Assembly (NCBI GenBank): GCA_004794655.1
Contig: SMMW01000584.1
Coordinates: 1,538,501 to 1,602,500 of the forward strand
Length of the DNA: 64,000 bases
Origin: Marisa cornuarietis
Lineage: Eukaryota; Mollusca; Gastropoda; Architaenioglossa; Ampullariidae
Reading direction: 5' to 3'
This document shows positions 10,302 to 62,400 of the stretch, piece by piece; positions within the stretch are counted from its first letter, which is position 1; every line of letters begins with the position of its first letter. A program made the translations under genes and the position numbers. The notes under the pieces are model-generated. The model saw only the letters and a program-made list of their open reading frames with translations. It had not been told where the DNA came from and made no database searches.

Positions 10302-10460
10302 CAGCGTTTCTCAACCTTTTACTTGTGACGCCCCCCCAGACGAATAAAGGTACGTCCGCGCGCCCCCCTTAGCCACTAATACCTATATGAGATATGAGAA
10401 AATGACCGCCTTTGCGGCCCCCTTTTCAGCAGCTTGCGCCCCCCAGGTTGAGAACCGCGG
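10302..10460. mobile_element. Short hAT-type MITE, copy 1 (159 bp)
   Basis: Starts CAGCGTTTCTCAACC and ends GGTTGAGAACCGCGG, which are imperfect terminal inverted repeats. It is flanked by a perfect 8-bp duplication TTTTAAGG (10294-10301 and 10461-10468). The C(A/C)GCGGTTCTCAACC-type end plus an 8-bp duplication is typical of hAT-superfamily non-autonomous elements. A second copy is at 39435-39613. Confidence 0.88.
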
Positions 10461-19842: not shown

Positions 19843-20145
19843 TCACTTGCTGCAGTTACTAGAGTTCTTTTTGCGAAGAGGGTGACCATCTAAGTTTGAG
19901 CTTGATAGAGAGATAGTCTGCTTGAAGGTGTAACGTGTCACCTCATAGTAGCCAGGGCAGAAGGAGCTTTGCTGAGAGATGCTGCCCTGAGAGGCAAGAA
20001 GGGTATCGGTGGAGGCAGAGCTGATGGAGTGTTGCAGCAGCTGTGAAGCATCTGTCACAGCACTGCTTATGCTTTCACGCCACTCAACAAGAGCCCTCCA
20101 GATCTTGTTACGGTGTCCTATGCCAATTTTCATCTGGGCCAGATC
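19843..20145 (-). CDS. p53-family exon: SAM domain, second half, and C-terminus
   Basis: Begins [20 protein letters not shown] (SAM helix 5; compare LGALKIPEQYRMTIWRGLQDL of p73), then a Ser/Thr-rich tail of about 70 residues ending SSNCSK and a stop at 19843. 100 codons. Confidence 0.93.
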   Translation of the reverse strand, partial: DLAQMKIGIGHRNKIWRALVEWRESISSAVTDASQLLQHSISSASTDTLLASQGSISQQSSFCPGYYEVTRYTFKQTISLSSSNLDGHPLRKKNSSNCSK

Positions 20146-38100: not shown

Positions 38101-41100
38101 CTGTGGCTTTAGTTATTACTGGAAACACACAATGATATATGTCTTTCTTCTGTGTGGATGGGGAATGGAGGTGGCTGTTAAAACCACCATCATTACTTTT
38201 TCATACACATTGTATGTACTTCAAGTATGCTACCTGTGACCCTGACCTTAGGGGTACAACTGATAACAGATTTCTCTTATCGCAATCCTAGTTTACATAC
38301 AATGCTACATCTACTGTAAAGCAATGGCTAGAAGGCTATTTTTCTAAACATAAACTAGCAAGAACAAGGCCACTGCTACTTTCTGAAGGCTGGTGAGATC
38401 CTGTTCTCAAAAGCAGTCATAGCTGTCAGGCATGCATCTTTTTAGTGACCATGTCACAAAGGTTCCAAAGAGATCAGCGTTCATGAGACAATCTCTCACC
38501 AAATCACAAAATATAAAGATGTGTGCAGTTACAAGATAGAACTTATTTCCCTTTTTCACTAATTTCAAATAGTTAAAAGCTAATAAAAATATTGTTGGCA
38601 TTAAGAATATCTAACAAGCCCTCTGAAGTGAAAACAATCTGTATATTATAAATGCCTTCCGATGAGCTGTTTCCTGAAAATAAACCAAACAATATTCTAG
38701 CACTGGTAATTTCAGCATAACACTGGCATCACAATGTGATTTATATGTCCAATAATATGATTCACTCAATGAAAAGTTTTATTACGGGAATGAGTAGTAT
38801 TTACAGCAGTAATTTCACTTATACTGACAGCTACAATGTGGCAAATTTTGAAGAATAAAGTGCAAGTAGCTTTCCAGCAAAATGTCAGTGAAGAACATTC
38901 AAAGCTATATTAGAGTGAGGACAAACCACCCAAGCATGTTGTCCATGTCCAGTAAGTATTTGTGTACACAATGTACAAGGCATGCTTTTTGGCAAATGTG
39001 ATCAGCTTCATTGCCAAAGAATTGTCTGTGTGTCATTAACACACATTATTCTTGTTAATCTATATAGTGTTAACTGATGTTTAAGTGTATGACCAACCCA
39101 TTTACTGTTTTCAGAAGAATGAGCCTACAGAGAATACAGCAAATCTGTAAGAAACATGGGCAAACTACCACCTTAACTGTTACTGAGTTTTACACCACTG
39201 ATTTACTCCAGTAAATACGCTTTTGGCCCATAAAACATGTAACTGCACAAAGTGGGTGGGACCAAGTAATCTTTTTCATGCTCAGGGTTTTAATTGATAA
39301 TAGGAAGTTTGAGATTCAGCGCTCGCACGACGCGCGAGGGAGCGGCAACCTGTAGCATCACGGGAATTTGCGCCTTACATCATCACGTCCACAAAATCCA
39401 ACCAATCGCTTTCTCACAACGGGTAGGTTTAAAGCAGCGTTTCTCAACCTTTTACTTGTGACACCCCCCCCCAGACGAATAAAGGTACGTCCGCACGCCC
39501 CCCTTAGCCACTAATACCTATATGAGATATGAGAAAATGACCGCCTTTGCCGCCCCCTTTTCAGCAGCTTGCGCCCCCCTTGGGGGGCGCGCCCCCCAGG
39601 TTGAGAACCGCGGGTTTAAAGGCTCGCTGTTCTCGTTGCCACACACGTCTCCCTACGCGTCGTGGATCTCAAACTCTCTAATATCTTATCTAACTTCAGA
39701 GATAAAAGTCCCTAATCATGAAATTTTAATCCGCATATTTCAGGCATTTATAATATACAAAACTGATTAGTAACAACTGCGCTTCTTCAGTTATCCCATT
39801 ACATAAAAATAAAAGATAAAATTGTCTTTCACCGCTATTTATGTATGCATGCAAAGTAAAATTTAATTACGAATGATAGAGTTTGTTAAAAAAATTAGTC
39901 CAAAAATTGCAGCCGATTCGTTTTTTAAGCACAATTTTACATGCCACACCTGATGAAGAGGTGCTTCATGAGTAAAGGTATGCAAAACTATGGGCATCAA
40001 ATCTTTTAAAACAGGCCCACTAACCTCTATTATTGGAACTGTTGTTTTTATAAGATTTTATCTTCAGTTAATTCTGTTACAGACTTCGCAGATAAACCAT
40101 ACCATATAAACACAATTCATTTATTTTTAAATAAAAACTCATTTACATGACCGTGCATATGTATGTGCAGGTCCTTCAGCAATTCAACACAGCGGGCCAC
40201 ATATACACACATGCCATGCTCAACCATCTTTACCCTTAAAGTACACAAACAACAAGGGATAAAATTTAATCATCTGAACGGAATTAGATTCCTATGCAGG
40301 GAAACAGAAGGATGGTGATTTGAGGATCTGATCCCTCCAACCATCAACCATAAAGATCAGATATTACAATGATCATTCGTTTTATTTAACTTGTGCCAAC
40401 ATTTTTTGAAAACGTTATTGCAGGAGTAAGGGGAGATGTACATGGTAAACTGATTACAGTAAATATTTATGAAAGAGAAAGACTTTAAATCCTGACAGGA
40501 AAGCATGTAGTGTCTCCACGCTACAAAGAGACAAGAGATGGGGCATTCCAAATACTAGGGCCAGTAAAAGAGACTGAGCAACAGCCGAACCTCTTCCGTC
40601 TGATAGGTGGAACAGTGAGAAAACTGGTGTTTGTGAACGTAAATGGTAAATGAAAACATTTACTCACAATGTCTGTAATGCTGTTGGATGGGGAACCCAT
40701 GGCTGGCTTTCCTGTATAAAGCTGAAAACGCTCAATGTGAAGCGAGGCCATGTTCTCCTCCTCCTCCTCCTCAGAGCCAAGATGGAAATCCATGTCACGA
40801 GACACAACACGTGTAAATCCCCTGTGATGATAGAGATGTAATGTGACAGCATTTTGCACATAATCTTACCTTTTCATGTATAATTTTTTTTTTTTGCAGT
40901 TTAATATGAAAGAGAAATTTCCCTTGTAACATTTGTTCAATGGATAATTGTTATAATTACAAACCTAAAGCCACTGCAGGATGAGTGTTAAAAAACAATT
41001 ACAGCATTACACAAAGCACTATAAAACAGGGTATGTCAAAAGAAACCACTTGAGATTTCTTGCTCATAAATGTTAATAGGCTGACTGCAAGGGAAAAATA

Positions 41101-41503
41101 AAATTATAAAAGACAGGGTCAGATCGAAGGCATAATGATCTTATGGTTAAAAATATACTTTTTTCTTTCTGGAATGTGAAAATAAATGTTTAAGTGGCAT
41201 GTCAGAAAATGCAAAATCAGTATTATTACATCACCTGTCTGCAAAGTTGGATCAGCAGATAAAGCAGGTTAACACCAAATTTAGTTAAATTTCAGCAAAA
41301 CCTTTGCACAACCAAAAGAAGGGAGCCATTGCATGCAAGCAAACACAAAGGTGCAGCAGAAAATCCAAAGTAACGGAAATGGTAGATATCAAGGATGCTT
41401 ACCCACTTTCGTTGATTTCCCCAAGTGATTGCCATAGTGTTTCAAATGTGTCCTGAGACATAAGGTTAGGTGGTGTACAGCTTGCTGCTGAAGCTTGGGA
41501 CAT
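19843..41503 (-). CDS. TP63/TP73-like: p53/p63/p73 family protein, long SAM isoform (623 aa)
   Basis: Sequence-specific tetrameric transcription factor of the p53 family, acting in the nucleus in damage response, germline protection and differentiation. Exons: 41403-41503 (from ATG), 40668-40821, 30739-30908, 30459-30537, 30151-30288, 29042-29233, 26744-26933, 26284-26369, 26019-26140, 21157-21399, 20906-20999, 19843-20145. All are GT/AG and phase-consistent. Domains: transactivation/MDM2 box (F20, W24, L27), PPPY at 123-126, DNA-binding domain about 143-340, tetramerisation about 366-400, SAM about 493-545. Zinc ligands are C219, H222, C281 and C285. DNA contacts equivalent to human R248, R273 and R282 are R291, R315 and R324. 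Junctions before YSEM and before VVK agree with vertebrate p63/p73. It lies head to head with WRAP73. One locus serving both p53 and p63/p73 roles is known in molluscs. A further upstream exon may extend the N-terminus (see 47162-47752). Confidence 0.95.
20192..20594. mobile_element. MITE (403 bp) in a SAM-domain intron
   Basis: Terminal inverted repeats CAGGGCTTCTGCTAACGC and, at the other end, GC(C)TTAGCAGAAGCCCTG. A possible 5-bp duplication TAATC flanks it (20187-20191 and 20595-20599). The interior contains inverted GGGGTCCC/GGGACCCC blocks. Superfamily not assigned. Confidence 0.75.
20906..20999 (-). CDS. p53-family exon: SAM domain, first half
   Basis: 31 codons, [20 protein letters not shown] then [11 protein letters not shown]. 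The pattern W-L...L...YI..F...G...L..L is the SAM fold seen in p63/p73. Confidence 0.93.
21157..21399 (-). CDS. p53-family exon: linker before SAM domain
   Basis: 80 codons from [18 protein letters not shown] to [11 protein letters not shown]. It is Ser/Thr/Asp-rich and probably disordered; [20 protein letters not shown] may be a short inhibitory or activation segment, but I cannot assign one. DVAVIKNEN is close to a SUMO consensus (V-K-x-E is only approximated). Phase 2 at both ends. Confidence 0.85.
23532..23746. repeat. Tandem duplication of a 109-bp unit
   Basis: The block starting AGAGACTAATATCACAATTT at 23532 is repeated from 23641 without a mismatch over about 106 bp. Two copies only. 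It is a recent duplication or an assembly duplication. Confidence 0.9.
24519..24621 (-). CDS. Alternative last exon giving the p53-like basic tail
   Basis: Acceptor cttgcag, then [20 protein letters not shown] and [14 protein letters not shown], with TGA at 24519-24521. No good donor is visible before the stop, so it acts as a terminal exon rather than being spliced onward to the SAM exons. Confidence 0.85.
24519..41503 (-). CDS. TP53-like: p53/p63/p73 family protein, short p53-like isoform (444 aa)
   Basis: Shares the first nine coding exons (transactivation, DNA-binding and tetramerisation domains) with the SAM isoform, then uses the terminal exon at 24519-24621 in place of the three SAM exons. 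The result has p53-like architecture: no SAM and a Lys/Pro-rich basic tail with [13 protein letters not shown], comparable in character to the basic regulatory C-terminus of vertebrate p53. Both acceptors join the tetramerisation exon in the same phase, so the choice is a clean alternative-last-exon decision. Which isoform dominates cannot be read from DNA. Confidence 0.88.
26019..26140 (-). CDS. p53-family exon: tetramerisation helix
   Basis: Encodes [20 protein letters not shown], then [20 protein letters not shown]. It matches the RGRENFEILMKLKESLELMELVP block of p73. The residue equivalent to human p53 R333 is Cys. It ends in phase 2 and feeds both alternative 3' ends. Confidence 0.94.
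26284..26369 (-). CDS. p53-family exon: linker and start of tetramerisation domain
   Basis: 28 codons, [20 protein letters not shown] then [13 protein letters not shown] is a probable nuclear localisation signal. EEIYTLT is the beta-strand that opens the tetramerisation domain. Donor gtgagt. Confidence 0.92.
26744..26933 (-). CDS. p53-family exon: DNA-binding domain, second zinc half-site and DNA contacts
   Basis: Begins [16 protein letters not shown], with zinc ligands C281 and C285 and DNA-contact R291. It includes [15 protein letters not shown] with R315 and R324. The donor AAG|gttggt was chosen because it alone gives the phase 1 required by the next exon. Confidence 0.93.
27215..28891 (-). 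mobile_element. Decayed hAT-like DNA transposon (1.68 kb)
   Basis: Inverted ends AGAGGTAATTCTAGG and CCTAGAATTACCTCT, flanked by GTTTAC on both sides (27209-27214 and 28894-28899; 8-bp windows CCGTTTAC and GAGTTTAC differ at two bases). Internal minus-strand frames are transposase relics (27548-27778 and 28517-28810). It sits in the p53-family intron between the two zinc half-site exons. Confidence 0.7.
27548..27778 (-). pseudogene. hAT transposase C-terminal relic
   Basis: Encodes [20 protein letters not shown] then CERG in one frame and [10 protein letters not shown] in the next, together the hAT dimerisation signature (ACERGFSxxNxIK) broken by a frameshift. The N-terminal relic at 28517-28810 on the same strand is separated by stops. 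Confidence 0.65.
29042..29233 (-). CDS. p53-family exon: DNA-binding domain, first zinc half-site
   Basis: 64 codons beginning [17 protein letters not shown]219 and H222 are the first two zinc ligands (human C176, H179) and R218 matches human R175. It ends SEWVTNLFQ. Confidence 0.95.
29345..29537 (+). mobile_element. tRNA-derived SINE (193 bp)
   Basis: Pol III A box TGGTGGCGCAACGGTTAGCG (from 29354) and B box GGGTTCGTTTCTCG (from 29408). It ends GGTTCGGTGTAAAACACTAA and a C-rich run, and is bounded by a perfect 14-bp duplication CACACAACCACAAA (29331-29344 and 29538-29551). It sits in a p53-family intron, antisense to the gene. Confidence 0.88.
30151..30288 (-). CDS. p53-family exon: DNA-binding domain, YSEM...MKPEHVQE
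   Basis: 46 codons, [20 protein letters not shown] then [10 protein letters not shown] and [16 protein letters not shown]. It covers the strands around TCPV and the RAMAI segment (human p53 VRAMAIYK). Confidence 0.95.
30459..30537 (-). CDS. p53-family exon: start of DNA-binding domain
   Basis: Encodes [20 protein letters not shown] followed by KSTTWT, the N-terminal strand of the DNA-binding domain. It matches DYPG...F.VSFQQSSTAKSATWT of p63. The junction after TWT is the family's conserved one. Confidence 0.95.
30739..30908 (-). CDS. p53-family exon: Ser/Pro-rich linker with PPPY motif
   Basis: Encodes [20 protein letters not shown], then a Ser/Pro-rich stretch with [10 protein letters not shown]. 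PPxY is a ligand for WW domains (YAP, Itch-type ligases). In vertebrate p63/p73 the PPxY is C-terminal to the tetramerisation domain, so its place here, before the DNA-binding domain, is unusual. Donor gttagt, phase 2. Confidence 0.9.
36990..37345 (+). mobile_element. LINE 3' end, plus strand
   Basis: One frame reads [19 protein letters not shown], a decayed LINE ORF2 terminus (FKxxLKTHLF). It is followed by a 3' UTR ending GTGCATGCTCTCGGTTTGAG...CCCTATACAAATC and an ATT repeat. Same family as the minus-strand copy at 12231-12540. Confidence 0.65.
39435..39613. mobile_element. Short hAT-type MITE, copy 2 (179 bp)
   Basis: Same ends and interior as the copy at 10302, about 20 bp longer because of an extra GC-rich palindromic run (CTTGGGGGGCGCGCCCCCC). 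Perfect 8-bp duplication GTTTAAAG at 39427-39434 and 39614-39621. Confidence 0.88.
40668..40821 (-). CDS. p53-family exon: acidic linker
   Basis: Encodes [20 protein letters not shown] and on to [22 protein letters not shown], 51 codons with a six-Glu run. Phase 2 in, phase 0 out, donor gtgagt. Likely the second part of the activation region. Confidence 0.85.
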
Positions 41504-41531
41504 TTTGTTCGTTGTCTGGTGTTTAATGTAC
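41403..41531 (-). CDS. p53-family exon with start MSQAS and MDM2-binding box
   Basis: The ATG is at 41501-41503. It encodes [20 protein letters not shown] and then [14 protein letters not shown]20, W24 and L27 match the F19/W23/L26 triad of human p53 that binds MDM2, and the block resembles TTFEHLWSSLEP of p73. The 28 nt between acceptor (tttgcag) and ATG is open in frame, which allows a longer N-terminus from an upstream phase-2 exon. The donor is gtaagc, phase 2. Confidence 0.92.
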
Positions 41532-43254: not shown

Positions 43255-43323
43255 ATGAATTTTTCTGAGTTATTTAGGCAGTCACATCAACTCTGCAGAT
43301 TTTCTCCTGATGGAAAATATCTT
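43255..43323 (+). CDS. WRAP73: WRAP73 exon 1
   Basis: Start AACCATGAAT. Encodes [20 protein letters not shown] then KYL. Donor gtaagt, phase 0. Confidence 0.95.
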
Positions 43324-46300
43324 GTAAGTACCCGGAGGAGTTGGGATTTTTTGAATTGTATGAGAGAGGGGGAATATTGATTCCCTAACGCAGCGAAAGC
43401 AAATATGTATGAATATGTATCAGCGGTATATGTGTAATGGTATCTTAAGACATGAAACAGGATTGTATGAAATTATTCCTATCCTCACTGGTCCCCCCAC
43501 TTTTTCGCATGGACCTAACGTCGCCTAAGCGAGGTATTGGTAATGTGGTTTTCATTAATGGAGATAACCAATATTACAAGCTACCCATATAACGGACCGT
43601 TATTTACAAAGAGTTTATTTTTCAGGCCTCAGCCATTGACTATCGTCTTGTTGTGCGTGATGTGGAAACCCTACAGATTCATCAGTTGTTCTCTTGCCTT
43701 GATGCAGTCCAGTACATAGAGGTGTGAACTGGAAGTTGCCCCATAATACACATTCAATACCAGAAGACAGTTTTCTGTGTATATATATGTGTGTGTGTGT
43801 GTGTATAAATATATATTACAATGTCATAGTTTGGAAGGCTGTAGTAGCAGTTTTTGTCATCATTATCATCATTCCTTGTTACTCGTCGAGGAGCATAGGG
43901 CCAGGCAGTTTTTGTGAAGAAAGTATATGTCCTCCCCAGAAGACAAGGAACACATAATTTTTAGTATCGTTCATGTTTACTTACTTTTAAGTCACTTATA
44001 TATTAAGCTGATCTCATTCTAATTGGTCTTAGGTTTGTTAAATTTGATCAGGTTTTTTTTTCAAAGAAGTTGCATAAACTTTTTCTGTCTACCCTCTTTT
44101 GTGCTGTCACCTAACAATTGAAGCGTCCATAGAATGAAGCAGACTTGCATGTTAATTTATTTGATAAAGAGGTAGTCAGAGGTTTTTTCTTCTCATTATT
44201 ATATTTTTCTGATTAGTGGTCTTTAATGTGTTGCAGTGGTCCCCTGACTCACTTTTTGTTCTTTGTGGAATGTTCAAGCGAGGAATAGTGCAGGTAAGAT
44301 GACACTCAGCCTAAGAATCAAATGTTAAAAATAAGTTGTTGGTTTTTTTTTTTGCTTCTGTGACTTAGTTTTATATATATATATATAATAGTACTAATTG
44401 AATTTCTAAAGCACATTTCCCTTTGTGGAGGCAGCTTAGTGGGCTCTGCCACAAGACTACAAACCAACTGTTAAATATACAACAAAGCATACAACTAAAA
44501 ACTTACACAACAGCACACACGTTACACAGCAGAGAAAAAGAGCAGGACAAGGACAAATATGTGAAAGTTAGGAGTGATGTGAGCAAAAGAGCCTGCAGGT
44601 TTCCATAAGGTATTTCAGAAGTAGGTAAGGACTTCAAATGAAATCATAGGATTAGTCAATAGTCAATAGTTATGTCAAAGACTAGATAGTACTCCTCTTA
44701 ATAGCTATTATTGGTAAAACTGCATCAGGATGTTTAAAGAAGTTTTGAATGGGTTATGTTTGGACAATGGCATAATCGTTGTAGTAACATTGCAGATAAT
44801 TTGATCTGTTCCTAGGTATGGTCATTAGAAAACCCAGAATGGCAGTGCAAAGTAGATGAAGGATCTGCAGGTTTGTGTGCTGCACGATGGGCGCCAGATG
44901 GCCGACACATCTTGACTACAGCAGATTTTTATGTGAGTACCTTGTAAGGAACATTTCAACGCTTTTGGTGGCACCAGGTTGAAACATAATGTGAAGACTT
45001 CTGAATATTACATGAATACAGAAATGAGGAGTGCGTACAGCAGGCTTTCGTTGTATTAAAGTACTTCCTCCACTTCCTTCAACAGGAATTGTGGCTTCTA
45101 GGTTTTGCGGTAAAGCATTGCTCAAATACTTGTAAAACTACTATTGCACAAGATGGTACAAAGAACTAGTGAAGTTTATCAAAGGGAAGCAACTAGGGCT
45201 GATCTCTGTTTATGGAACATATTTTCATTCTTTCCGGCATTTTTTTATTTACAGATTTAAAAGGGGACTTAACACATCATACATAGCTTGTTTCTAGCAT
45301 GTCATTAGTGCTGCCATAGTACTTTTTGTAAAATTCTGTAGATAGCTGACGTGCCAGTTGGATATGTTAAGATAAAAATGACCAAATATAGCATAAAGAC
45401 CACTGAAAAAACAATTTTTTGATTTTTTTTCTGTAACAGTTATGAATAAAGAGTTGCAGAAAGAAAAAATGATGTTTTTAAAATGTTTAGGTCAGAGAGT
45501 GTATTCACTTCAGTTTGATTTCTAACTCGTGTTGATCTTATTTTAGTTATTAATGAGAGAAAGTAGGTACATTAATCAAGTGGTCTGATACTACAATACT
45601 GACACAAATGTTTCAACAATGCACCACCAACTTCAAGATCAACTTAGAGATTCCACTTATCTTGGGGCCAGCTGTTTTGAGGGCAGTGCCTGTCTTCTTT
45701 CCTTTGCTGCATTACTTTAACTCTGTGAAAAGGTACCCATTCCACAACTGGGTCAACTGGGGGAGGTATCGTGTGGTACGTGGGTATTAACTGGTTAGTG
45801 TGTGCCTTCGGGTTAGAGTGCAGTTGCTGTAACCACTAGGCTATGTGCTTCCCTCACAAATTTAGATTAAGGATAACAGCAGATATCCATCCGTGTTAAC
45901 ACAAGTTAAATGGAAAGAAATGTTGAGCGTACACATTGATTAGGGTGACACAAAAAGTCGTTGTATTTTATGTACACACTATGTTTAAAAAGTAACATTT
46001 AGGATGGGAAAAAATACTAAAAATAGTAACTTGAAGGCTGACCAAAAAAACCTATATTGTTGGTAATTATTTTTCTGTAACATTGAGTGTGTCTTTGAGA
46101 TGCGGAAACTAGTGCGTTATAAGATGACATCAATGAACCAAAAAACAGTATGTAATTTTTAACATATAAAACTGAACTTTTATAAATATGGCAGCTGCGG
46201 ATCACTATTTGGTCACTGGTCACAAAGTCTGTTTCCTACATTCGATATCCCAAGCAGTGTCAGAAAGGTAAGACATTTTAAAAGAAGTTTTGCTTTCCTG

Positions 46301-49300
46301 CTCACTCTAAATGACACAAATTTATAATTGAACAGAGAAAAGCTTAAAAACAAATAAAGAAAATGTTTGAAGGAAAAATGTTAGAGATGACTGACATCAA
46401 TGTTAGCGATCATGGCTGGCTTGTGGAGTGGAGAATTTCATGAAAAAAATGAGAAGAATTAAATCAGAATATGTGGAAAGAAGAAAGCAAATATGATAGG
46501 AGACAATGTCAAATGCTATAAGGTGATTCTGTTCAAGGTTTGGACTTCAGTGACAAAGGCAAGTACTTGGCACTGGCAGAGAGAAGGGATTGTAAAGACT
46601 TTGTCAGCATCTTTGCTTGTGACACCTGGTCTTTAGTACGAGTGAGTGAGCTTAGCCTCTAGTTCTCAGTAACCTAGAGAGTGGTTCATTTAGCCTCTGG
46701 CTTGAGTCTGTAGTATCTGTTAATTTAGCCAGGCAGCACCGGTTTCATATAGCTGTAATTGTTTTCTTGCTACCAGATACCACTATGAGAAAGAGGCCTG
46801 TGTCAATTGTACCATGTAGACGTCATCCTGCCTTTATATTGTATCCTGGGCTTTTGTATAGTTTTCTTCCTGCTTCTGACTTGCTTTTCCTAAATCTTTT
46901 ATGCACTGTGTCCACAGCACTTTCAGACTGAGACAGATGACCTAGATGGATTAGAGTGGTCACCCGATGGGCGAGTCCTGTGTGTCTGGGATTCATGCCT
47001 GACTGTAAGGTTTAAATCACTTTGCTTCCTTTGTGCATGTTTGTTTGGTGTTACTCCTAACAGTATTTAACATACTTACTATTGGATAAGGAAAATTAGA
47101 GAGAGGTTGTTTAAGTCTAGTAAGAACTAGTGGCAAAATGAAAGTGGTGGAAATCTCTTACCTACTGTTACTGTTGTCACAATTGTGCATGATGTGGAGC
47201 TGGTTCTGTTGTGGAAGCATCTGATGGTGCTGTTCCAATATTGGTGGCAGTGAGGGAGCAGGCATCTGCACATAGGACCTGTGGGTGAAGTGAGCTTCAA
47301 CTGTGTGGGACTGGAGATGCCCCATGTAACCTGAGATTCCTCTGTGAGGTGCTTGTGCTGTATGGGTGGGCAATGCTGCTGTAGACCTTGCTGGGCTTGC
47401 ACTGGGAACGGCTGCTTCCTGGATGGGGTGGATGTTAGGGTGGACAATATTTTGGTTGTCGAAGAGTGACTGGCTGTCACCCTGGCAAGGCTGAGGGTCA
47501 TTTGGGTAAGGGAAGGTATTCATGTTGGAAATTCTCTGAGGTTTCTGGGGGTGAGCATCCTCTTCAAAGATGTTTTTGCAGCTGAAGGTCTGAAAGTTGT
47601 CTGAACAGTAGCTTGTGCTTGTGTGATCATTACCACTTGTTATACCCTGAGAGTAGGTTGTTGAACACACTGGTATGGAGGCAGACATGGTACTTTTTCA
47701 AGGTGGATGGCAGTTTCAGCAGATTGAAACAGATTCAGGAGATTGATCTGTGCTGGGAAAAAAAAACAACTTTCTTTCCGACAAACAAGTAGTGTTGACA
47801 CATCTCAATACATATCTTGTGAATATGTGCATGTACCAGCCATTCACACTATTGTGAGTTCATGGATCACTGGACTCCCTGACATAAAAGTTACAGATAG
47901 TAATCAGCAGGTAAGCATGAGGGAGACATGCAGTGGTGCACTGTTCTCGCTTTGGTAGAGATGACAATTAAACCTGGCAGAGATTTGACATTGTACATGA
48001 TCTCTCTAAATTGAAGGGATTGCAGTGGTGCTATATATATATTCACAGTATTATTAAGTATATGTCTTTGACTCACTGGACACTGGCAGTTTACTGCATT
48101 TTTTTGTAATCAGATTAGGGAGTGACTAAAGGTGACTATGTATACATGATATAATGTGTTAAAGGTTGTATTTTGTTTCATTTGGTGTTTGCAGTATCAG
48201 TTACTTCTGTATTCTCTTGATGGAAGATGTGTGGCCCGATATTCAGCTTATGATTATGCTCTTGGGATCAAGTGCATTGCATGGTCCCCCTCTGCACAGT
48301 TTTTGGCTGTGGGCAGTTTTGATGAAAAGGTAAGTGTTCACCTGTCTTTGTTTGAACATTTGTAGATTTGGTTGAGCATGTACCAGTGTACTTTGTGTCA
48401 AGATGTACCACATGCTTTCCTAATTCTTATGTGTGCTCAGTAGCGGCTTTAGCAGTATCCAGGGCTCTGCAGGGCCCTGGGCGAGTGTCATATGTGGGGG
48501 CCCCAGTTGGCACCCCCAAAGGCCACCTCTGTATGTGCCATATTGCCTTACATACCCTTTTGCTTCTTTGGTTATTGGATTTTTGTTTTTGTTGCTTTGT
48601 CTGTTTATGTCATGAAATATTTAACTACATTTCTGCATTCTTTGTCTTGTGGTGCTTGTGGTTACAAACACAATACAGGTGACACAGATTTCAGCAGTGC
48701 CAAGATCAGCATTTACTTTTGAAAAGGCATGATGCACAAATTATAGTATTGAAGATAACTGATCAATGTTGCGGCACTATGCTCCTCGAGGAGTAAAAAG
48801 AAATCATGATGATGATGATGATCAACGACACCAGTTTTCTCTTCTCTGTGTGTGTGTCTGAAGGACAATGGTCGCCAGTGGGTAGATTACTGCACCATTT
48901 TATAGCTGTCTTATTGTGTGTGTGTGTTTGTAAAGGACAAAGGTGACCAGTGGGTAGACTATTGTACCATTTTATGGGTTTTCATGCGCGTGTGTGTGCG
49001 TACGTGCACGCACGCGCGCCTACAAATCCATTTTTTTTTTAAATCTGCCATTCGGCGGCCGCAAATGGGATACGATCATCCTATGGTGCGGCGAGTTACA
49101 GGACGCGGCACACAAGCATTGGCAAACTTTCAAACAGAACGACAAAAAGGCACTGGCTTTCCACAACTACCTTTGTAAACCATCTGCTTGAAGACCGAGG
49201 GAACATCTGTCTGGGAATTACCTTCCGTTTTGTTTTCCCCACTATCCATAGAATGTGTCTTGACATGCAGATGCGCGTGCGTGGTAGCAGGTAAATAGAT

Positions 49301-52300
49301 GTTATATACGCATACCCAGTGGCGGCGGTAGCGCGCTGTTGGCGGAATATGTCAAACAGTGTTAGGTGTATAGGCTACGAGAATACGTCAGACAGTGATC
49401 GAAAAGTACGGGTTTGGGGTGGGGGAAAGAAAAGGCTGTTTCTTACCTCGTGTGCGGGCCTTGACCGCCTATAGTTATACGGTCTCACGCGCGCGCGCGC
49501 GTCACAGCGTGACGAAGAGGCAGGCACTTAGTTACACAGTGGCTGCCACCGGTGGGCAGCGCACCGAGATGCTGATGATAGCAGCAGCTCCCTTGAGCGT
49601 CGTAGATAAACCGAACGATGAACCGCCAGAGATGTTTGCAGAATCATCGGAACAAGGGGCAGAAGCAGTTTGTCAGGAACCGCGCCACTGCCAGTCACCA
49701 CTGGGGTCCGCACGGAGGGGCGAGAGAGAGAGAGACTTAGCTTGCACACCGACCGCCGGGAGCTGTAGCTACCCCCTACTCGAAACAGCCACCTGTCGCA
49801 GTCACAGTTGCTGTTTTGGCAGAGTTGACGCAGCCCAGCTCCAGGTTTGCAGGGGGTGAAAAATAAAAGAGTGGAAGGTGGAGGATTGGGGAGGGGAGAG
49901 GAGGTGGACGTTAGCTGGCTCGTTTCTACTTTCTCGGCGTCACCTGTCTCAGCCAGGCGTGACCGCCGTGTATCATCTTCGCTAGAATCAAAACCGCCGA
50001 TGGCGCCGTCGCTACGCGCCTACGTGGGTAACCTTAGTCGCTGAGCTTGAGTGGTCCCGTTAGCATTTCTAACGGTTTGTCGGGTGGCCGCGTTGGGTTT
50101 GAAGGGTAGCCTCAGCCTGCAGCACCTGAACGTAAAACATTTTTCAACATTTTACTATTAAGAAAAAGAAGTTTTTAACACCTTCGCATCACGATAACAG
50201 ATTGAAAAGTACACACAATTGCCTTCTGGTTATCGCAGCTGTTCGAGATAACGCATCCGAGATTGATTCCCAGATCGTTTATCTCACGGTGAGTACTCGG
50301 GGTAGTGTATCGTGGTGTTAGGTGTGGGTGGCATATCACGCTACAGAGAACAAGTCCCCCGCGAAGAGGTCTGTGACGCGGTTTGAAAAGGCTAGATCTG
50401 CTAGCTTCCGGGTAGCATAGCGCGGAGAACCACGGCTCCCTGGAAAGCACGTCTTCCTCTTGGTTTCTGTAGACAGCGGCGTCGCACCGGCAAGCGCGAG
50501 ACCCTCGATGGTAGTACCCCTGCACATCGCATGGCACACCCTCGATCACATGATAGCGCGGCATGTTGCACGGTGTGCTGACAGCAACCTTTATGCACGA
50601 CACTGCTCGCATTTACAGAACAACTTACTACCAGAGCACTGCTTGCCATCACAGCACAACTTACTACAAAAGCACTACTTATTATCACAGCGCAACCTGC
50701 TGGCACAACATTACGTATTATCTCAATAATTACTTACTCTTATATCAAATTCTGAACAGCAAGATCCATTATTACGACGGCACTCGTGTCACGCAGGAAG
50801 TTCCACGATTTTTGTCAGATCAGTTTATGGCTTACAGACGATTCAGAAATTTTGAAAAAAAAACAGGTTTCACTGCCAGGTTTGTTGCTCTTCTTTCATT
50901 ACGAGTATCGCTCCCAAGGATGTAGGCCTTGCTGAATCTTGATAGCCGCGAGTTGCAGCATAAGACAGACCTAAGGGTTCTGCTAGTACGACCTCGTGTT
51001 GCGTTAGGCTAATGCGTCACACATGGGGAGGCTAGTTTGCCGTTCGCACTGTTGTTATCGCGGATCCCCCCCCCCCACACACACACACATTCCTCAACTC
51101 TCCTCCGTGCCTTCTGCTGCACCGCACTGTCGGGTGGAGGGGGGAGTGAAGAAGACGCGATTTATCAAGTTAGCGATGTGACAGGTTGGGGGTTGAGCGC
51201 ATCAGATGAGGGATGTCGTCACAGCAGTGGTGCCGATAGTGTTTGAGTGTGCTACTAAAGACGTGATGGCTCTGATATTTTTTTTTATAGCAGATCTTCG
51301 TGGTAAGTATTCTCGAGAAAAAGCATTACTAATTTGCTTTTCCTTTGTGGCATTTGACGTCGCGAAGGTACATGGATAGTATTACCATACGAATGCTACA
51401 TAGGCCTACAATAGCTGGGAGCACATGTTAAGTGGCATATTTAACATCTAACCCATTTCTATTCATGTTATAGAGGCTTGTATCTCGAGAACCGAAAGAG
51501 ATTGTTCACTCAGATTTTTAGAAATAGAAGCACCCAACGAACTTAGCCAGTCATTCGACAGTATATATTTATCTTTGGTTGTTGTTTTGCTAATGCTTGT
51601 TGTTTTACTAATATCACGTATACTTGGTGAAAGTATGTTCACCTCTAAAACCCACGGGAATAAACTGACGTCTGGTGCCACCCTTGATATCCTGTTCTCT
51701 ACACTGAAAATTACCATGTCATGGATCACTACCTGTGTTAACCAGTTAACATTCGTCCTTAATTAATTCTTTCAGGATAACTGCAGTCTCTGGACATTAG
51801 TAGTCAGTAGTTTCAGGATCTACGGCGTGGATCCCTTTTTTACTATATGCTGAGTTTCGGATATTTACGGGTCGTTCAAGTCGGATTTTGCTCTAGTGTT
51901 CTCTTTTAAAACATAGCTGTTAAATGTGAAAATTTAGACCCGGGAGCGAGGTGTTTAACGTCGTTGACCAGAGAGGGTGGTGGGGTGGTTAAATAACGGT
52001 ACAGTCATGGCAGGAAAGGGCCTCTATCTTTGCTCTTAGAGATAGTTACAGAGTGCAGAGATAACCGCTGTTTTCTGCGCCGACGTTGGAGAAATGCCGG
52101 GGTGGGTTAAGATCTCAGTCAGAAATCTCCTTTTAGTAATTGCCCGAGCTAACGGTCACTGAGCTGCATGCCCATCCTGCAGTCGTACGGATAGGGAGAA
52201 AGGAAAGAGAGCGGGTGTGGCGGAGGAGCTATCGACCCGTTGCAACAACCACTAAGCGAGGACACGAACCAAGGCCGCTGCCGGTTCCTAGCTTAAACCA

Positions 52301-55300
52301 GCAGCCTTTAGCGATATCCCGAGATACCGAAAAGGCGTCTCAAACTCAAACATGAAAGAGCCGCCATAGAGGTAGGGAGGCTACCGTGGGTAGCGGGGCG
52401 AGGCCCGCGGACATGAAAGAGCGGCAATGGAGGCGATCAGGCCTGACGTCCCTCCTTCGGGGTCATTGTCGCCGTTGACAGCATCGAGGGGACTGTCCGA
52501 CGAGCTGGGCGAGGGTGAAGGGTAGCGATAAGACGGACACGGGACGGCACCCCAAAATTGACAAGCGCTTCACCTCTTCACCTTTGGCTTGGTCTTGTTT
52601 CGATTGTTCTCCGGTGACCCTGCCTCGAAGCTCTTCAAACCCGCCTGCCATCAGGAATGTAGGTCGAGTGTGTAGAGGCATCCCCGGGTCCTTCACACCC
52701 GCTTTCAGATGTCACCCCACCCCTCACCCACCAACGCACGATCTCCCACCCAGCCCCTCGCAGAACCCGGTGCGAGATGACCCGGCGAGTCTTGAGTTTG
52801 TAACGGAAGAAGTGTTTGAATTTTTACGACCATTGTTATATGTTGCCGTTACTAATCTGTTTGTAAAGGATTTTTTTTTTTTGAATGGAGCTGCGCCATG
52901 ACCCGTTCTTGTCGGCGCTTGAGGTAGGCCACTCGAACCGAGGAGGCCCCTTGACGACGGTGTGTGTTGGAGACTTCGCGTTTCGGCAAAACAAGAAAAA
53001 AAAAAGGGGGGGAGGGAGAGATGACGGGGGTGATAGAGAGGGCTAGGGTGGGGCAGCCATGATGAAAATTTTTCGGTCACCTATCCAAGTGACACAGAAC
53101 ACCTGTGTGGTTGAGGGATCCATATAGAACGGGAAATATTGTGGGGTGGGGTTACGAAGGAAAGATATCAGTTTTTTTTTAACGTGGACATGGAGGTTTT
53201 CATTGACAACGTAATAATTTTCCCTTCCTGCACTTATCTCGAAATAATTTCATTTAACAGGAATAAAGTAAACCCCTCATCCACACACAGACACACACAA
53301 CCAAACATGCTACAGTGTCGTACACATTTCATAGAGAGCTTAAAACGAGATCTCGTGTTTCGGTGCCCTCATACTAGGTGCCTCAGGCAGAGGTCTATGT
53401 GACGCCCAGAGGGGAATTTTCATATTTTTTTCTCTCTAGCTATACAATTCATTTTATAATTATAGAAAGGAAACTATAGCCATAGAATTGAATTGTATAT
53501 ACAAAATGAATTGGATGGCAACTTTAAGGCATAATATAAATGAACTATTTTGGTTTTACCGAAATTTTCTATCTCTAGTTATAGAATGAATTGGATAGAA
53601 TAGCTAGAGAGAATTATGAAAATTCTCCTCTTCACGCCTCATAGAGGTCACTACCGTCTGGGTTGGCTGGGTGACTGCGTAGTCCGTAGCGTTGGCTGCT
53701 GAGCAAAACAGCATTTTATTATTATTATTTTTTGAATAACGCGTCTTCATGGCGGCGAAGTGGGCTGTTATAGGTGGCACTGTCACTGTAGACGCTGTTT
53801 TGAGAAGTCAGCCATCTGTAATTACCTTTGTAACTCGGCTTTTTCATATTATGGACGGTGTAGTATTGAAACATGGTGGGTGGTCGCTTGATCGGGTGAG
53901 AAAAAATTTAGCAGATTTGGGGTATTTTTTAGTCCTGGTCGATAAATTTATAATTTATGGCTCTATGTATAGATACAACGAATACCTCAAATTAATATAA
54001 TAGCCGTACAATATGAATATAAAAGAAAAGAAATATATATTTCAAATATATGTAATGCGTATCTAAAATACATGTGCACTCATAGAATGTATACGGAGCA
54101 GTTTTATCCGTTCGAAATCTTGCTGAGATAGAATATTAAAGCTTCAGGGGAGTACAGATTTACGTTCAATATTATTGTGATAAACACCTAGCTTTACTGC
54201 GGTGAAGAATGGGCGGGCACAAGAAATACATAACGAGAAAGGTAGAAAGGAGCAGGTTTGTGACGCTGTTCATTTTCCTGGCGAATTATTTCGTCGAAGA
54301 TCTTAATTTTCTGAGTGTGAGGATTTAGCGAAATCGTTTTTTTTTCTTTCTCAGGCTTTGTTCAGTATAAACGTGGTGAACACCAAGATGTTTTCATTTG
54401 TGGTTGAACGCATGTCGGCCACCAATGCCAAGCCCTATTTTCGTGAGTTTTTTTTTTTTATCTTCGTCGCTCAAAGAATGCAACCCTCTTCCCTCCCCAT
54501 CACACATTTTTGCATCTTTTTAAACAGGGGTGGGGAAAGTACGGCCCTTCAGCCAAAATGCGAAGTGAACTTTTTCAAAAATTTAACTTAGGTTAATTTG
54601 ACTGATAATTTATTAAAATACGACTTATAGTGTGAGAAGTCATCAGTCTGTAACAGAAAAAGTACAAAAATAACAAACGTCTGATGGAGCTGTGAGAGCA
54701 TCGGCGGCGGCTGCCTTAAAATGAAAGACGGTTCAAGTTTTTATTGTGAGCGAATTTAAACAGCTTCACTTTTCGCATCAAATTTGGTCAGTGATCATCG
54801 TGTACGCATTTCCATCCCATTTTCACTAGGTTTGCTGTGTAGTCACGGCAAAGGTTTTGGGTATGTTACCGGCCCGCCGCGTAGTTAGGAATTTTGAGAC
54901 CGTCCCACAAAAAGTAAACGTTGCTCACCCCTTTTCTTATGGGATGCGACATGCCAGCTTGCCCTCTGGCGTGAAGCTTATCGTGGCCTTTTCTCTGTTT
55001 CGGGATACTTTTCTCTCAAGCACATTAGCTTCTGGCATGTTAGGTATAATCTCCAGGTGAGACAACCTTTTTCCATTCCTGGATGCGAGATTTTTTTCCT
55101 GAGAAAGTCCTATAGAAGGAATAAACTTCATGCCCCTTCACTTGCAGTATTTGAGCCATTTCTGCTTGCTTCACTGAAGCAGTTGACGGAGGTTAGATAG
55201 GGGGTTAACTACATGACGAAACTTCATCATGTTTTTTGTTTTGTTTTGTTTTTTGATGGCACGAATGTTGCAAAACGGACACCAGACAAGTAGAAACAGA

Positions 55301-58300
55301 ATTTACTGATAGACGATGTGAGGAGAGTAACTAATGGTGGAGTGTAACAGAAGCTGCCACTTGACAGGTAAGGCTTTCTTCGCAGCAAAGTGGCGAGAAC
55401 CGTGCGGTCCCTATCATGATTGCTGACTCATAATCCTATTCTTGATTTTAAAAAATTAAAACTAAAGGACCGTCCTTTGTACTTTTAAAACGACGATGGT
55501 GATAATTCTCGCCTCTAACGCACAAAGGGCAGCTCAACGAGTCGCAACGTGTGCTGTAGGCGAGTTATCTGCCCATTGTAAGATAACCTATCTTGGTGAG
55601 CCGCTGATGCCGCGCTGGTCCCGTTAGACCCGAAACCCAATCACCGTACGAACTGGCATAAAACTGCAGCGAGGAAAAAAAAAATCCTCAGCGAAAAGGA
55701 TGTTTGGTGGAGGGAAGATCCGGCTGGGGGCTAAGAGATAGATGCAATCGGCGTGCAACGTCGAGTCGCAGATATGACGCATACCACTTCTCCACCTTGA
55801 TGGCAGTGTTCTTATTTGGGGGAGGAGACTAACGGGATGCATGGAGGCGCGCGCGCACACACATACACACACACTCTCTCTCTCTCTCACACACACAGAC
55901 TTTGACCGTTTTATTAATTCTACCATTGGGTTCATATCAAGGGGTAAGTCATCGATATTTAAAAATTGCACTGGATCGTTTGGCAATGACAGAGAAAAAG
56001 GGGAGAGGAAGGAATTACATTGTGAAACACGAAACACGGGGCGTGAGCAGCTAGTGGGCCAGGTTTTAGAGGCATCCTGCTGCGACCGCGACAGACGATG
56101 CATTCAGACTGTACGTCTGTAGCCAAAAGACTGTGTCGGGGTGTAGAGTTCCACTCCTGCCGTGACAGTAGCGGTTTCCCCAGTCTTGTATAAGGGAGGA
56201 GGTGAGTGGGGTTGGGTGCGGTGAAGCGTTATTGTCGCCCGACTTGACACTGAATGTCCCATCATTGTTTAGTCCTTGTCTTTCTTTTGTGCACCAGTGG
56301 CTCTTATCCTGTCTCTTCCCCCCTCCCTCTTCCCCCATCCCCCTAGTATACTTCCCAGCCTTCTGCCTCCCAGTCGGTGCAACTCGACGCTTGGGCTGTC
56401 AACAGAAGCAAAGAAAGGTTGCGACAGCTCCTGGAGATTCGAACTACCCGTACACCCCTCCAGGTGTCTGCCCTCTTGGGGTGATTATCCGCGTTGCTTT
56501 CTCCGATCCAGCTCCGGCCCACCCCCTTCCACCTGTCGTCCACCACCCGTACTATAATCAGGAGTTGCCTAACTCTTCTCTCTCGACACCCAACCCTTTT
56601 AGCGTTTGTCGTGCACTCCCCTTTCGTATACTCAAGCTCTATTCTTAATTAAAGATTTGTGAGAAAAGGCAGGGTTGGTGGTGGCTGTGGTGGTGGTGGC
56701 GGTGGGGAGACGATAAGTATGTTGTGATGTTGTGATCGACGCGCGATACAGAGGTTTATAGGCGGGTGGGAGGTACCTTTGGTGACGACGGCAGCATGTT
56801 TGTATTTGAATATGTTATTAACATTTCCATCTTGTCATATTCAGAATCTGGCGCAGGGTTTAAGGACCCGGTTGGAGTCTCAGCTTTCGCGTCTGTTGGG
56901 GCGTGACCGGTTCGAAACTCAGACACCTTGCACTCAAGCTATAAGACGCGGCAGTGTTGTTGATGGTGTTTTGGAAGTAAGAGAGGCGGGTGGGTGGGGA
57001 AAGATGGTAAGGAGGGGGTGTTGTCAAGTCGTAAAAAAAAAAGCTCGCTCTACGCCTTCCACACGTTTTGGGTTTTGATAGCACCTGACAAACAAATCCT
57101 ACCAGTGTTTTTCACCTGCACGTAGCATTGTCACTGCCGTCACCTGTGAGGCTTTAGAAGAAAAGACGTCATCATGGAAATAAATCCTTTTTTCACCTGT
57201 TGAATTTTTACCTGCAACTGCCAACCATTTTATTACTGATCTGCAAAGGACGTGTGATGACTGTTATTTGGTTGCTGTGTCCGGAATTAGCTGTCTTGTC
57301 ATCGGAGTGTGTTATTCACGACGTTTCGAACTCTTACTTAGCTCTTTATGTTCAGAATCGTGGTAACGGGTAGTTACAGTGACGCCACTTGACCTGTTTG
57401 AATGTTGCCGCGTGCCAACTGCACAGCAGACGTGCACATTGCATTGAACTGTCGGTTGACCGTGACATGCTGCAGTGGACTGAACTGTCACCTGAGCGTG
57501 ACAATCTGCTCTGACCTGCAACCTGACGTTGACACACTGCTATGAGCTGTCACCTAACCGTGGCACGCTGCACCGACCTGTTAGTTGAGCGCAACACGCT
57601 GCACTAAACTGTTACATGAGCGTGACACGCTGCACTAAACTGTTACATGAGCGTGACACGCTGCACTAAACTGTTACATGAGCGTGACACGCTGCACTAA
57701 ACTGTTACATGAGTGTGACACGCTGCACTAAACTGTTACATGAGCGTGACACGCTGCACTAAACTGTTACATGAGCGTGACACGCTGCACTAAACTGTTA
57801 CCTGAGCGTGACATGCATATTTGAACTGTCACTATGAGGTGTCAGGTTGGGGGAGGGGCGGTTTGACCACCCATGTAGCGCCCTCTTCTCTCCACGTCCT
57901 TTTTGTTGCGTGTTGTACTACTGCCACCCACTCCTACCTGACTCCCAAAGAAAGAAAGAAAGAACTAAACGAACGAAAGAAGGAAAAAGAGAACGAATAG
58001 TTCGTTTTCAGGAGGGAGGCTAATGCACTAAGAACAGTTTTAAGAGTGAATATCGTTAGAATAAACAGTCTGGTCGCTTTTCACCAAACTTTCGACGCGA
58101 AGAAACGGGTGCTTGCTGGTGGAACGAATTGATCCTCATTCTACATTTGGGAAGAAATGCCCGTATGGGACACCATGCAGTCCTTTCAGCCTAACCTCTA
58201 GGGTCTTAAAAACCACATGCAGTGAGTATGGCAATGCAGTGTATTAAAAGTCCACCCCCACCCCGCCTTTATTGGCGTAACCCATACCTTTTCACTTTTT

Positions 58301-59427
58301 GAGACTGGATGTGACGTGGAGCATAACATGTCTTTCCAGGAAAGCATTTGTTCTATAAAGATTATGTTCACAAATATCGTCACAATTGAGTATGAATTAA
58401 GGAAATATTAATCGGAAGTAGGCATTCTGAAATAAAATATGTAAGTGACGTTTGGATGAAGGAGGGATAGGTTTTCCTGCAGTTGCATGCTGATGATGGG
58501 CCACGAGTTCTCTCGAAACCCTGACGCGCATGATCAAATGTGTGACTCTGTTTAGCATATTTGACATCCATAGAATATACTAGCAAAATATAGTCACCTA
58601 TTTGACCAAATGGGTACGGTCAAGAAGGTACTTGTTACCATCGACTGCGAACATTATGAAATTCTTTTTCTCGACGATTTTTTTTAATACTAATTGTGCC
58701 TTTAAATGGACATGATTGTTTGAATGTGAGTGTATTTTGTTAATATGATGGTCAAATAAAAATGGGTCCAGCATAGCCGCGTGTTTGACCCTATATCAGG
58801 TAGGGTTAAAAAGATTTTACAAGGCACCGTAACCCTGGCCATCACGTTTTTCATATCGGATGTGCCTTTACCAACAGGCTCTGCTGTCGCGTAGCCCTTC
58901 TTGGCCTGTGAAAAAGGGTTATAACGTTGTTTGTACCTGTCGCTTGCCTGTACCCAACCCCTCGACCTCCCCTGCTCATTAAGACTTACGCTATGCAGCC
59001 ATCAGCTCCACCCTCCCGTTCTGTCGGGGAATGGACGTAATTACAGCCTGCTAGCTCACCCGCCTCTTCCCCCATCCCCCCTCTCTCTCTCTGCTTGACT
59101 GGCATAGGAAAATGCGGATACCCGGGGTGCGGCTTAGCACGGTCCCGCAAGTTTCTTTTCTGCTCTGCGTGTGTGTGTTTAAGGCTTCCTAGTTTCTCAT
59201 CAGCACCGGAGATGTAGGGCTACGTGACCTCCCTGCGGCGACAACGGTTCTTTGTAGAATGTCCGGAAGGAGACGAGGGGAGGGGAAGACGAGAAGAGTG
59301 TGCTAGGCTAATAATAATAAAGCACTTTTTATAAAGCGCTATTCCTGCTAAAGCTCAACGCGCTTTAATACAAGTAAACACAAACAGCACATCCACACAA
59401 ATAATGAAATGCATATATACAATTTCA

Positions 59428-59489
<62 letters not shown>

Positions 59490-62400
59490 ACCGTATAAAT
59501 GAATACGTTGCACAACAAACTAATGGAAGACAATTTATAAAGACGCCAGACGAAAGAAAGAAGTTTTTAGCTATTATTTGAAACTGCGCAGTGTATAGAC
59601 AGCTCCACATTCTCGGGGGCAATAAAATCGAAGGATAGGTGTCCAAAAGATTAGCGTTTAGGATCATAAGGAGTTTTTTTTTTTTTTTTTTTTGCTGCAG
59701 AGCGGAGACAGTAGGTAACTAAAGAAGCTGACATGTAGGTGAAGAGAGTCCTCAACATGACGGTGGGCAACTACAGCGATCTTGAACTGTTTACTGAAAG
59801 GCAGTTCTTTGAGCAACCTAGCTACGTCCTCATGATTCGATTTCCGTGCAGTTAAGTTTTGCGGAACTGTGTTGAAGCCTTTGCAAGAGAGCGAGCATCC
59901 TGTAAACCACCCAACCGAGCTAAGTCCGGTTCAGAGCTCACCGTTAACGCCTGTGCTACTGGAAAGGCCCCCTGACGGCCTAGGACACTAGGTAATGTGA
60001 ACATATCCTGCCCTTGCGTTGTGCCGTCACCCCGGGGCAGATGTCGCGCGTATGTTGACGTCTTGGAGGCCGGTGACCTGCAGAAGACTTCGTAGCGGAA
60101 CGCGCTTTTTACCTCTAACGAGAGACAGGCCATCTGAGTTATGGTAGCCTTTAACTTTTATCCTGAAGCAGGTGACAGAATCACCCGGATGTTCATCCTT
60201 CTTACCAGTTCTCACCGCTGCAATCTGTCGTAGAACTTTAAAATAATAATAAAAAAAAGTCTGAACTGGGTGCAGGTGCTGAAGCGACTTTCATGGTTAG
60301 TTGTGATTGCGTCAAGCTACAGCGCTGAGTGGTGGTAGTCGGTTGGGAGGTGTAGGACGCAGGCTGTGGCGCTTGTGCGATGCAGCAGGCTGGCGTGACG
60401 GTGGGCCCTGTCCGGACACGCACCTGCTGCCACGCATTCCGCGAGCGGCGCGAGGCGTGACAGACGAGTAGAACCAGCCTGCTGCTTGACGGGCCCACCA
60501 CCAGAACGCCCTCCCGTGCCAGAGCTACGGAATTTACAACGGGTATGGAGCACGCCGTATCGTCACCACCCTCCTCCCCACAATTCTCTGGAAGGGCGGA
60601 CCCATACCTACAGCCCGTTATATCCTCCTTCTCACTGGTGGTGGCGCCAGGTAATACAGGCGTTTGACACAGCCTTGCGTTACTAGACCTTCCCGCTTCC
60701 CTGTCAGAAAGGGGACGCCAGGATTTAAAAAAGATTTGATGCTATGGTTATGGTAGGATATATGGTTAAGTTTTCAGAAAGTCGCAGAACCAACAGCGAT
60801 GGAAAGAAAAGATGTCAGACATTCCGTACAGATCAATGTTTGCATAGTCTTGGACTTACTCCTTTGTCTCACTTCCAGGGCTCATTATATATATATATAT
60901 ATCTATGTGTGTGTGTGTGTTGGACAAGGTGAGCTAGTGTTAGATGAACTCTGCCGAGAATTGCTTGAATATAGTCTACTATCACGTTGAGGAAAGCTGA
61001 GGTTTAACTGTGGCCGCTACCACCTTTCGGTAACCCGGTAGTCATGTCACCAGATGCGGTGGCTGAAAGCTTCGAGGCTCAGAGTGCTTCGGGTGTTTCT
61101 GAAAAAAACACCCCACCCCTACACAATGATCACTTACCCCTACCTATTGCTAATTGATTACCTGGCGACACCCCTCCGCTTTTTGACACCAAAAGGTAGA
61201 AGGTGAACTAGTATGTTAGGAGGGGTATTTACAATCTGTTCTGTGGGTGAGAAAAAGAAATTAAATTGTATGAATAATAATAATAATAATCATCATCGTC
61301 AGATAGGAAGCGCACCTTCTCAGTGAGTGAGAGCGAAAGGCCTGCATGAATTTATGTTTTGTTGAAAATGCTTACATTTAAAAATGAAGGGCAAAACCAC
61401 AGAGGTCCAAGTGTCCTGCCATGAGCCATTGCCAGACATGCATCAACTTATGTATTGGAGTTGCGCAGTTAGTAACCAGCTGGTGCACCCTCAGTCCCTC
61501 TGTGTGGCAGGGGTCCCCAGTCTCTATATATTAGCACAATTGGGTGGTGTAATGAAATTTGTTGGACATTGTGAGCACCTGATAGGTGAAGACCTCATAA
61601 GGTGTACACCAAGTGTATCAGAGAAGGAGATCTGGCATTAATGTAATGTAAGCAGATTAAATGCAAGGCAATCTTATTCTACCCCAGCTCTAGTCTTTGA
61701 CAGCTGTTCCCTCCTAAAAGACACTAAAAGGTCATGTATGTACTTATGTATATGGACACACACATGCACAAATGCACATAAATCCATGTGTCCAGCCCCC
61801 CTCCCCATTCTCAGACGTAGAAGGAAACGAAGAGACAAACTGACTTGTGTCTGCAGTACACTTGCATGCCATACAACATGGTAACATTTCACCCACCTCT
61901 TATAGCCATCTTTATATCACACGTGACAGTTACAGACTGCATCTTTACGATTGATTGCCGGTCACTAGTCACCAGTCCTTACCATGTGCTTATCACATGC
62001 TTAGTTGTATACTTAACCTTATGCTCGTGCAACAGTTACTCTGTAAGCAGATTATTGTTTGTTTGTTTTTTTACTTGGATGAAAGGAACACTGCAAACAG
62101 CTTGTGAACACATTGTAGGTATGATATGGTGAATGTGTGTCTTGCATGCAAGATAGTTTTTATTTTTGTGAAGGTAGCATATTAATCATCAAACATCATC
62201 TGCACTCTTCCCTTCAGCTGTAGAATTAACCCCCTAAGTGCAGAACCTTATTCACGCAAGTGCCATCTGGAAACCAGAATGAAGTCTCATGAGCCGGTGT
62301 AGTAACTACTGAAACATATGAGCACTGAGCTGTATCAAAAAGTAGAATTAGGAATTCACTCCACGTTCTTACATTTATTATTAATGAAGAACGAAGACTT

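Follow-up and report, generated by a model that had tools for sequence, protein, structure and literature searches.

A putative upstream coding exon, antisense within WRAP73, of a TA*-like p53-family form in the apple snail Marisa cornuarietis

The single p53/p63/p73-family gene of Marisa cornuarietis very probably has a genuine coding 5' exon, E1, at 47752..47162 on the minus strand, whose upstream start would give rise to a long, TA*-like form of the protein. Confidence is higher still that E1 is real and linked to the exon at 41531 (E2), which carries the start MSQAS. Spliced in phase to that exon, E1 would yield a long form with 185 extra residues ahead of the MDM2 box; this extension abounds in Ser, Pro, Gln and His, and disorder is predicted for it. 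A gene model of Pomacea canaliculata (P0001) begins at the identical methionine and joins E1 to MSQAS at the identical split codon, which bears out the earlier proposal that the exon belongs to the p53-family protein. Positions refer to the window, that is, the whole 64-kb stretch of DNA that was analysed.

Anatomy of E1 and of the two genes around it

The putative exon is bounded by recognizable splice sites on the minus strand:

47162..47752, minus strand: E1, 5' exon of the putative long form, coding at 47688..47162, with a matching exon in P0001
47753..47770, minus strand: E1 acceptor and pyrimidine tract (GTTGTTTTTTTTTCCCAG), from splice-site scoring
47156..47164, minus strand: E1 donor, TAG/GTAAGA, from splice-site scoring; the Pomacea-like protein P0041 ends at the equivalent place

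The coding part of E1 comprises 175 codons plus 2 nt (527 nt), translated as MSASIPVC...NSNS followed by a split R. Its ATG lies at 47688 with an in-frame TGA four codons upstream, in agreement with the preliminary description, and no earlier ATG occurs within the exon (47752..47162, minus strand) before 47688. Measured from stop to stop the frame spans 179 codons, and indeed none of the other closed frames listed for the window (112 in all, of at least 80 aa) is as long. Length was nevertheless rejected as proof of E1, because 10 of 60 windows simulated with a first-order Markov model, whose longest frames average 160 codons, reach 179; at the composition of E1 itself, a frame of this length arose in 56 of 5000 random trials. 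Splice sites were scored with matrices derived from 20 other modelled sites of each kind, taken from the window. With 3864 AGs scored, the acceptor is among the best 0.08%; it also outscores 18 of the 20 modelled acceptors and is as strong as had been claimed. The donor has the consensus-like sequence described earlier and belongs to the best 1.7% of the 4038 GTs, yet just 5 of the 20 modelled donors score lower, which makes it adequate rather than strong. Its GTAA doubles as a stop for the unspliced frame. The phase proposed for the junction also stands: the last two bases of E1 (AG) combine with the G at 41531 to form an Arg codon, and the 28 nt preceding the MSQAS ATG are open in frame and encode YIKHQTTNK.

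A single copy of E1 is present in the genome, and the exon has no Pfam match at E values up to 10; comparison with PDB sequences returned six matches, every one at E 0.55 or worse. A long invariant block of 34 residues within E1 was considered as a motif and rejected (p = 0.16). Structure prediction with AlphaFold2 took P0001 together with 26 relatives as input, 27 proteins out of the 41 retrieved. Per 10-residue block, pLDDT is 29-40 over residues 1-190, and no helix is predicted before that of the MDM2 box at 200-211, so that the 185-residue extension is predicted to be disordered.

Downstream of E1, the host gene was modelled as follows:

41403..41531, minus strand: E2, with the YIKHQTTNK leader, MSQAS start and MDM2 box FETLWQSL (exon modelling)
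40668..40821, minus strand: E3, acidic region (exon modelling)
33708..33749, minus strand: Delta-N start exon, coding part; the Pomacea model P0024 has the same start
26744..30908, minus strand: E4-E8, proline-rich region and DNA-binding domain (exon modelling; PF00870 matches)
26019..26369, minus strand: E9-E10, putative oligomerisation region (alignment to P0001)
24519..24621, minus strand: short exon encoding an alternative C terminus, WLTYMLAQ...KVIRRS-stop (phase set by eye)
19873..20999, minus strand: putative SAM-domain exons E13 (20999-20906) and E14 (from 20145; exon modelling, with the end of E14 approximate)

In the 534-Mb genome (7 candidates scored) PF00870 exceeds its cut-off at three places, all of them in this locus and nowhere else; the p53-family gene is thus single, its locus being the sole one with a PF00870 match. 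The sequence FETLWQSL, following the TA start in E2, conforms to FxxxWxxL, defined as the MDM2-binding motif in the available part of one article (PMC5543598). E9-E10 align to P0001, a protein with matches to PF07710, PF00536 and PF07647, and the translations of E13-E14 resemble its end. A trial exon at 22912-22813 was dropped, as it breaks the frame. A CpG-rich stretch at 34001-36000 lies directly upstream of the Delta-N start exon. Similar GC-rich, repeat-like stretches, which gave chance tblastn matches, occur at 39467-39511 and 10317-10376 (minus strand), the former in the intron between E3 and E4.

The second gene at this locus is WRAP73, which was traced with a probe taken to be the human sequence:

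43255..63894, plus strand: WRAP73 exons 1-9 within the window, from matches to the human WRAP73 probe

Exon 1 lies at 43255, exon 7 ends at 47004, exon 8 begins at 48195 and exon 9 is at 63817, with matches extending past the window to at least 67.3 kb. Intron 7 (47005..48194, plus strand) contains the whole of E1 in antisense, as the preliminary description had placed it. Intron 8 (48330-63816) is 15.5 kb long, and a tandem array with a 31-nt unit in 10.8 copies is found in it at 57479-57813. The p53-family gene and WRAP73 lie on opposite strands with divergent starts; provided that transcripts of E1 exist, the two genes would overlap at their 5' ends, with E1 inside WRAP73 intron 7. The p53-family protein P0038 of Plakobranchus ocellatus is entered in the database as 'WD repeat-containing protein wrap73-like', which hints that the p53-family gene and WRAP73 may be adjacent in that species too.

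Relatives of the extension and constraint on E1

The protein nearest to the E1 form comes from Pomacea, a member of the Ampullariidae. With the first 200 residues of the predicted long form as query, one match was obtained among 134 candidates, namely P0001 (89% over 100% coverage), an 805-aa Pomacea canaliculata protein entered at NCBI as 'LOW QUALITY PROTEIN: tumor protein 63-like'. E1 and P0001 differ at 21 of 174 residues (12%) and by one in-frame gap of two residues, the frame being open in both. A divergence of this size points to a different member of the Ampullariidae as the source of the window. The nine-residue leader encoded by the 28 nt of E2 is identical in the Marisa window and in P0001. 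A shorter E1 query likewise gave one match, among 36 candidates: P0041 (174 aa, 6 members, source 'lgn'), a Pomacea-like E1 frame that ends at the stop supplied by the GTAA of the donor. Because P0041 stops at this place the E1 donor appears to be conserved. P0041 itself looks unspliced, being what genomic or intron-retaining reads would give, and the long mRNA is suggested by one gene model, P0001, with no spliced read of E1 among the sequences retrieved; flagged as low quality, P0001 could be partly ab initio. No further relatives of the E1 sequence besides P0001 and P0041 were found in these protein searches (134 and 36 candidates). The proteins searched are representatives of 90% clusters, among which more extended isoforms may be hidden. 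P0024 (C0Q70_03634), the other model from Pomacea canaliculata, begins at Delta-N. The deposited P0024 model takes part of intron 6 as coding sequence and continues into E7 one base out of frame, and its DNA-binding domain is wrong for this reason.

Constraint on E1 was judged from protein-level differences between the window and the Pomacea models, with two neutral yardsticks, both short: the intron-6 read-through of P0024 and the third positions of E7, which are visible through its frame shift. For the same pair of species the read-through differs at 11 of 32 residues, and the proportion in E1 (21 of 174) is lower (Fisher p = 0.003). Third positions of E7 differ at 8 of 53 sites, while the E7 protein in its true frame is identical in P0001. 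When E1 was evolved neutrally at the E7 third-position rate, none of 2000 simulations kept to 21 or fewer changed residues, and a stop arose in 1819 of them. The outcome depends on the divergence assumed, such that 21 or fewer changes occurred in 2 of 1000 simulations at a divergence of 0.10, in 137 of 1000 at 0.07 and in 682 of 1000 at 0.05. In variability E1 stands between the DNA-binding exons E5-E8, which change least (0 to 2.2%), and E3, which changes most (16 of 50). From these sequence comparisons E1 appears to be constrained as protein, on evidence that is good, if not overwhelming given that the yardsticks are short.

Residues ahead of an MSQ-like start are frequent among molluscan p53/p63/73 models. 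A query made of the junction, the TA region and the proline-rich region retrieved 40 molluscan proteins among 498 candidates, with the longest extension in P0001. Among the 39 others, 12 carry an extension of 20-120 residues before the MSQ-like start (11 detected by script, Dreissena by eye), 7 have no MDM2 box and 20 start at or near MSQ, including the caenogastropod models from Batillaria (P0002) and Littorina (P0031), which start at MSQ and have no extension. One extended protein, P0010 (652 aa, with a 60-residue extension), lies on contigs of at most 2474 nt and is therefore very probably derived from cDNA or RNA. The extensions of Ostrea, Sinanodonta, Haliotis, Lymnaea, Physella and others resemble that of E1 in preceding the MSQ-like start. 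They differ from it in being shorter, at 20-120 residues, and in a motif, recognized by eye, of the form [FY]G[KRSN] situated 5-13 residues before the start; it is present in 12 of 12 shorter extensions and absent from E1. The preliminary description, which knew of no N-terminal form this long, needs softening on this point. Judged by sequence, the E1 form is the longest seen of a recurrent TA*-like arrangement, an extreme case and not an isolated one.

The start of the long form and competing readings

The strength of its acceptor suggests that E1 is preceded by an additional exon and that transcription starts further upstream. The next domain in that direction is CpG-rich:

49001..60800, no strand assigned: CpG-rich domain (observed/expected ratio 0.90), where the long form may have its promoter

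This domain fills most of WRAP73 intron 8, in a gene body that elsewhere is poor in CpG, and lies 1.2 kb upstream of E1 in the direction of the p53-family gene. Its CpG observed/expected ratio of 0.90 compares with 0.22 at 43701-48700 and 0.06 in E1; values of 0.99 and 0.77 are reached at 42301-43600, flanking WRAP73 exon 1, and by the Delta-N start. Ten of its longer frames yield no gene, with one Pfam match below cut-off (DUP, E 0.0025, 18.4 of 23 bits) and no transposon domain, and the window has no Rfam match at gathering scores. Transcription of the long form would initiate upstream of E1, most plausibly within the CpG-rich domain, a placement that is favoured among the readings considered and yet is tentative, at somewhat less than even odds. 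Were the start in intron 8, the long pre-mRNA would run antisense through WRAP73 exons 1-8.

About as much may be said for the CpG-rich block being an insertion of young or unmethylated repeats with no promoter role, the long form starting elsewhere, and this too is a serious possibility somewhat short of even. Tandem arrays are found inside the block, and comparable CpG-rich stretches at which no promoter is known occur at 6-12, 28 and 39 kb. Against an origin in repeats, however, the block contains within the window local tandem and inverted repeats and a single 46-nt match outside it, the ten frames scanned in it are free of transposon domains, and it is the next such block upstream of E1.

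It is also conceivable, though rather unlikely, that E1 is real but rare, with most TA protein starting at MSQAS, from a noncoding exon in a CpG-rich bidirectional WRAP73/p53 promoter around 42.3-43.6 kb, and with little function for the long form. The ratio of 0.99 in that interval and the half of the molluscan models (20 of 40, two caenogastropods among them) that start at or near MSQ are consistent with such an arrangement, whereas the conservation of E1 at the protein level argues for a functional extension.

Far less probable is a separate small or nested single-exon gene, antisense in WRAP73, in which the 174-176-residue frame would be translated unspliced to the stop made by the donor and the join in the Pomacea model would be an annotation artefact. 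P0041 gives the unspliced frame as a separate protein, and in the window the frame is intact, as are its start and stop; yet E1 is flanked by a strong acceptor and a usable donor in phase with E2, the nine residues encoded by the 28-nt leader do not differ between the two species, P0041 is explicable by genomic or intron-retaining reads, and E1 matches no Pfam family. That the frame is a chance stretch, picked by a gene predictor in both species, is scarcely credible despite a length that chance can supply in a 64-kb window (10 of 60) and the flag on P0001, given conservation above the neutral yardsticks, the lack of any stop or frameshift and the equal start and splice sites.

The preferred reading thus remains a coding 5' exon spliced to E2. 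Its extension would act like that of TA*p63, as an extra weak activation segment that may also tighten control of the TA form, a mechanism proposed by analogy to which slightly less than even weight is given. A more elaborate scenario is speculative and on balance doubtful: the 12-kb CpG island of intron 8 would be a regulatory domain, long pre-mRNAs would run antisense over eight WRAP73 exons, the 175-codon exon would be an expansion particular to apple snails that supplies a lineage-specific activation domain, and p53 and WRAP73 would be physically locked together.

Comparison with known systems

No paper on E1 was found in the open-licence literature among the matches listed, nor any there joining Pomacea, p53 and p63, or Spisula, p120 and the p53 family. 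The accessible part of an article on p53-MDM2 evolution (PMC10303687) contains no mention of 'Pomacea', 'gastropod' or 'extension', and WRAP73 does not appear in that of PMC12028249. The exon is nonetheless not undescribed, as had been stated, since NCBI model P0001 already includes it; it is new to the papers found and not to gene models, the variant being already in automatic annotation. Many molluscan models have residues before an MSQ-like start, which suggests that control through the N terminus may be ancient; the snail E1 would show how far such an extension can expand. With a coding exon deep in WRAP73, a deep p53/WRAP antisense arrangement could also be tested in an invertebrate whose p53-family gene is single.

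In vertebrates the activity of p63 is tuned by extended N-termini. The following comparisons with p63 are drawn from PMC6746776. The 39-residue extension of human TA*p63 stabilises a closed dimer and, once the dimer is open, provides a further activation domain, with weak binding to p300 Taz2 (PMC6746776). As in the putative snail form, an upstream coding exon is spliced to exon 2, the leader is translated in frame before the internal start and the added residues precede the transactivation helix (PMC6746776). The likeness is one of exon layout, with 39 extra residues in TA*p63 and 185 in the snail, and dimer stabilisation and transactivation have been shown for TA*p63 (PMC6746776), whereas the snail form is known from sequence and models. 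GTAp63, found in the testis of humans and great apes, is likewise an extended TAp63, in which an alternative coding exon lying upstream, U1, is joined by splicing to exon 2, but U1 derives from an ERV9 LTR (PMC6746776) whereas E1 is single copy in its genome. The closest parallel for the gene pair is the cis-antisense arrangement of TP53 and WRAP53, as given in the available part of PMC9882892, in which a p53-family gene and a WD-repeat gene again occupy opposite strands and overlap at their 5' ends. There the start of WRAP53-1alpha corresponds to TP53 exon 1 (PMC9882892), while in the snail a coding exon lies in WRAP73 intron 7 and the overlap would be deeper.
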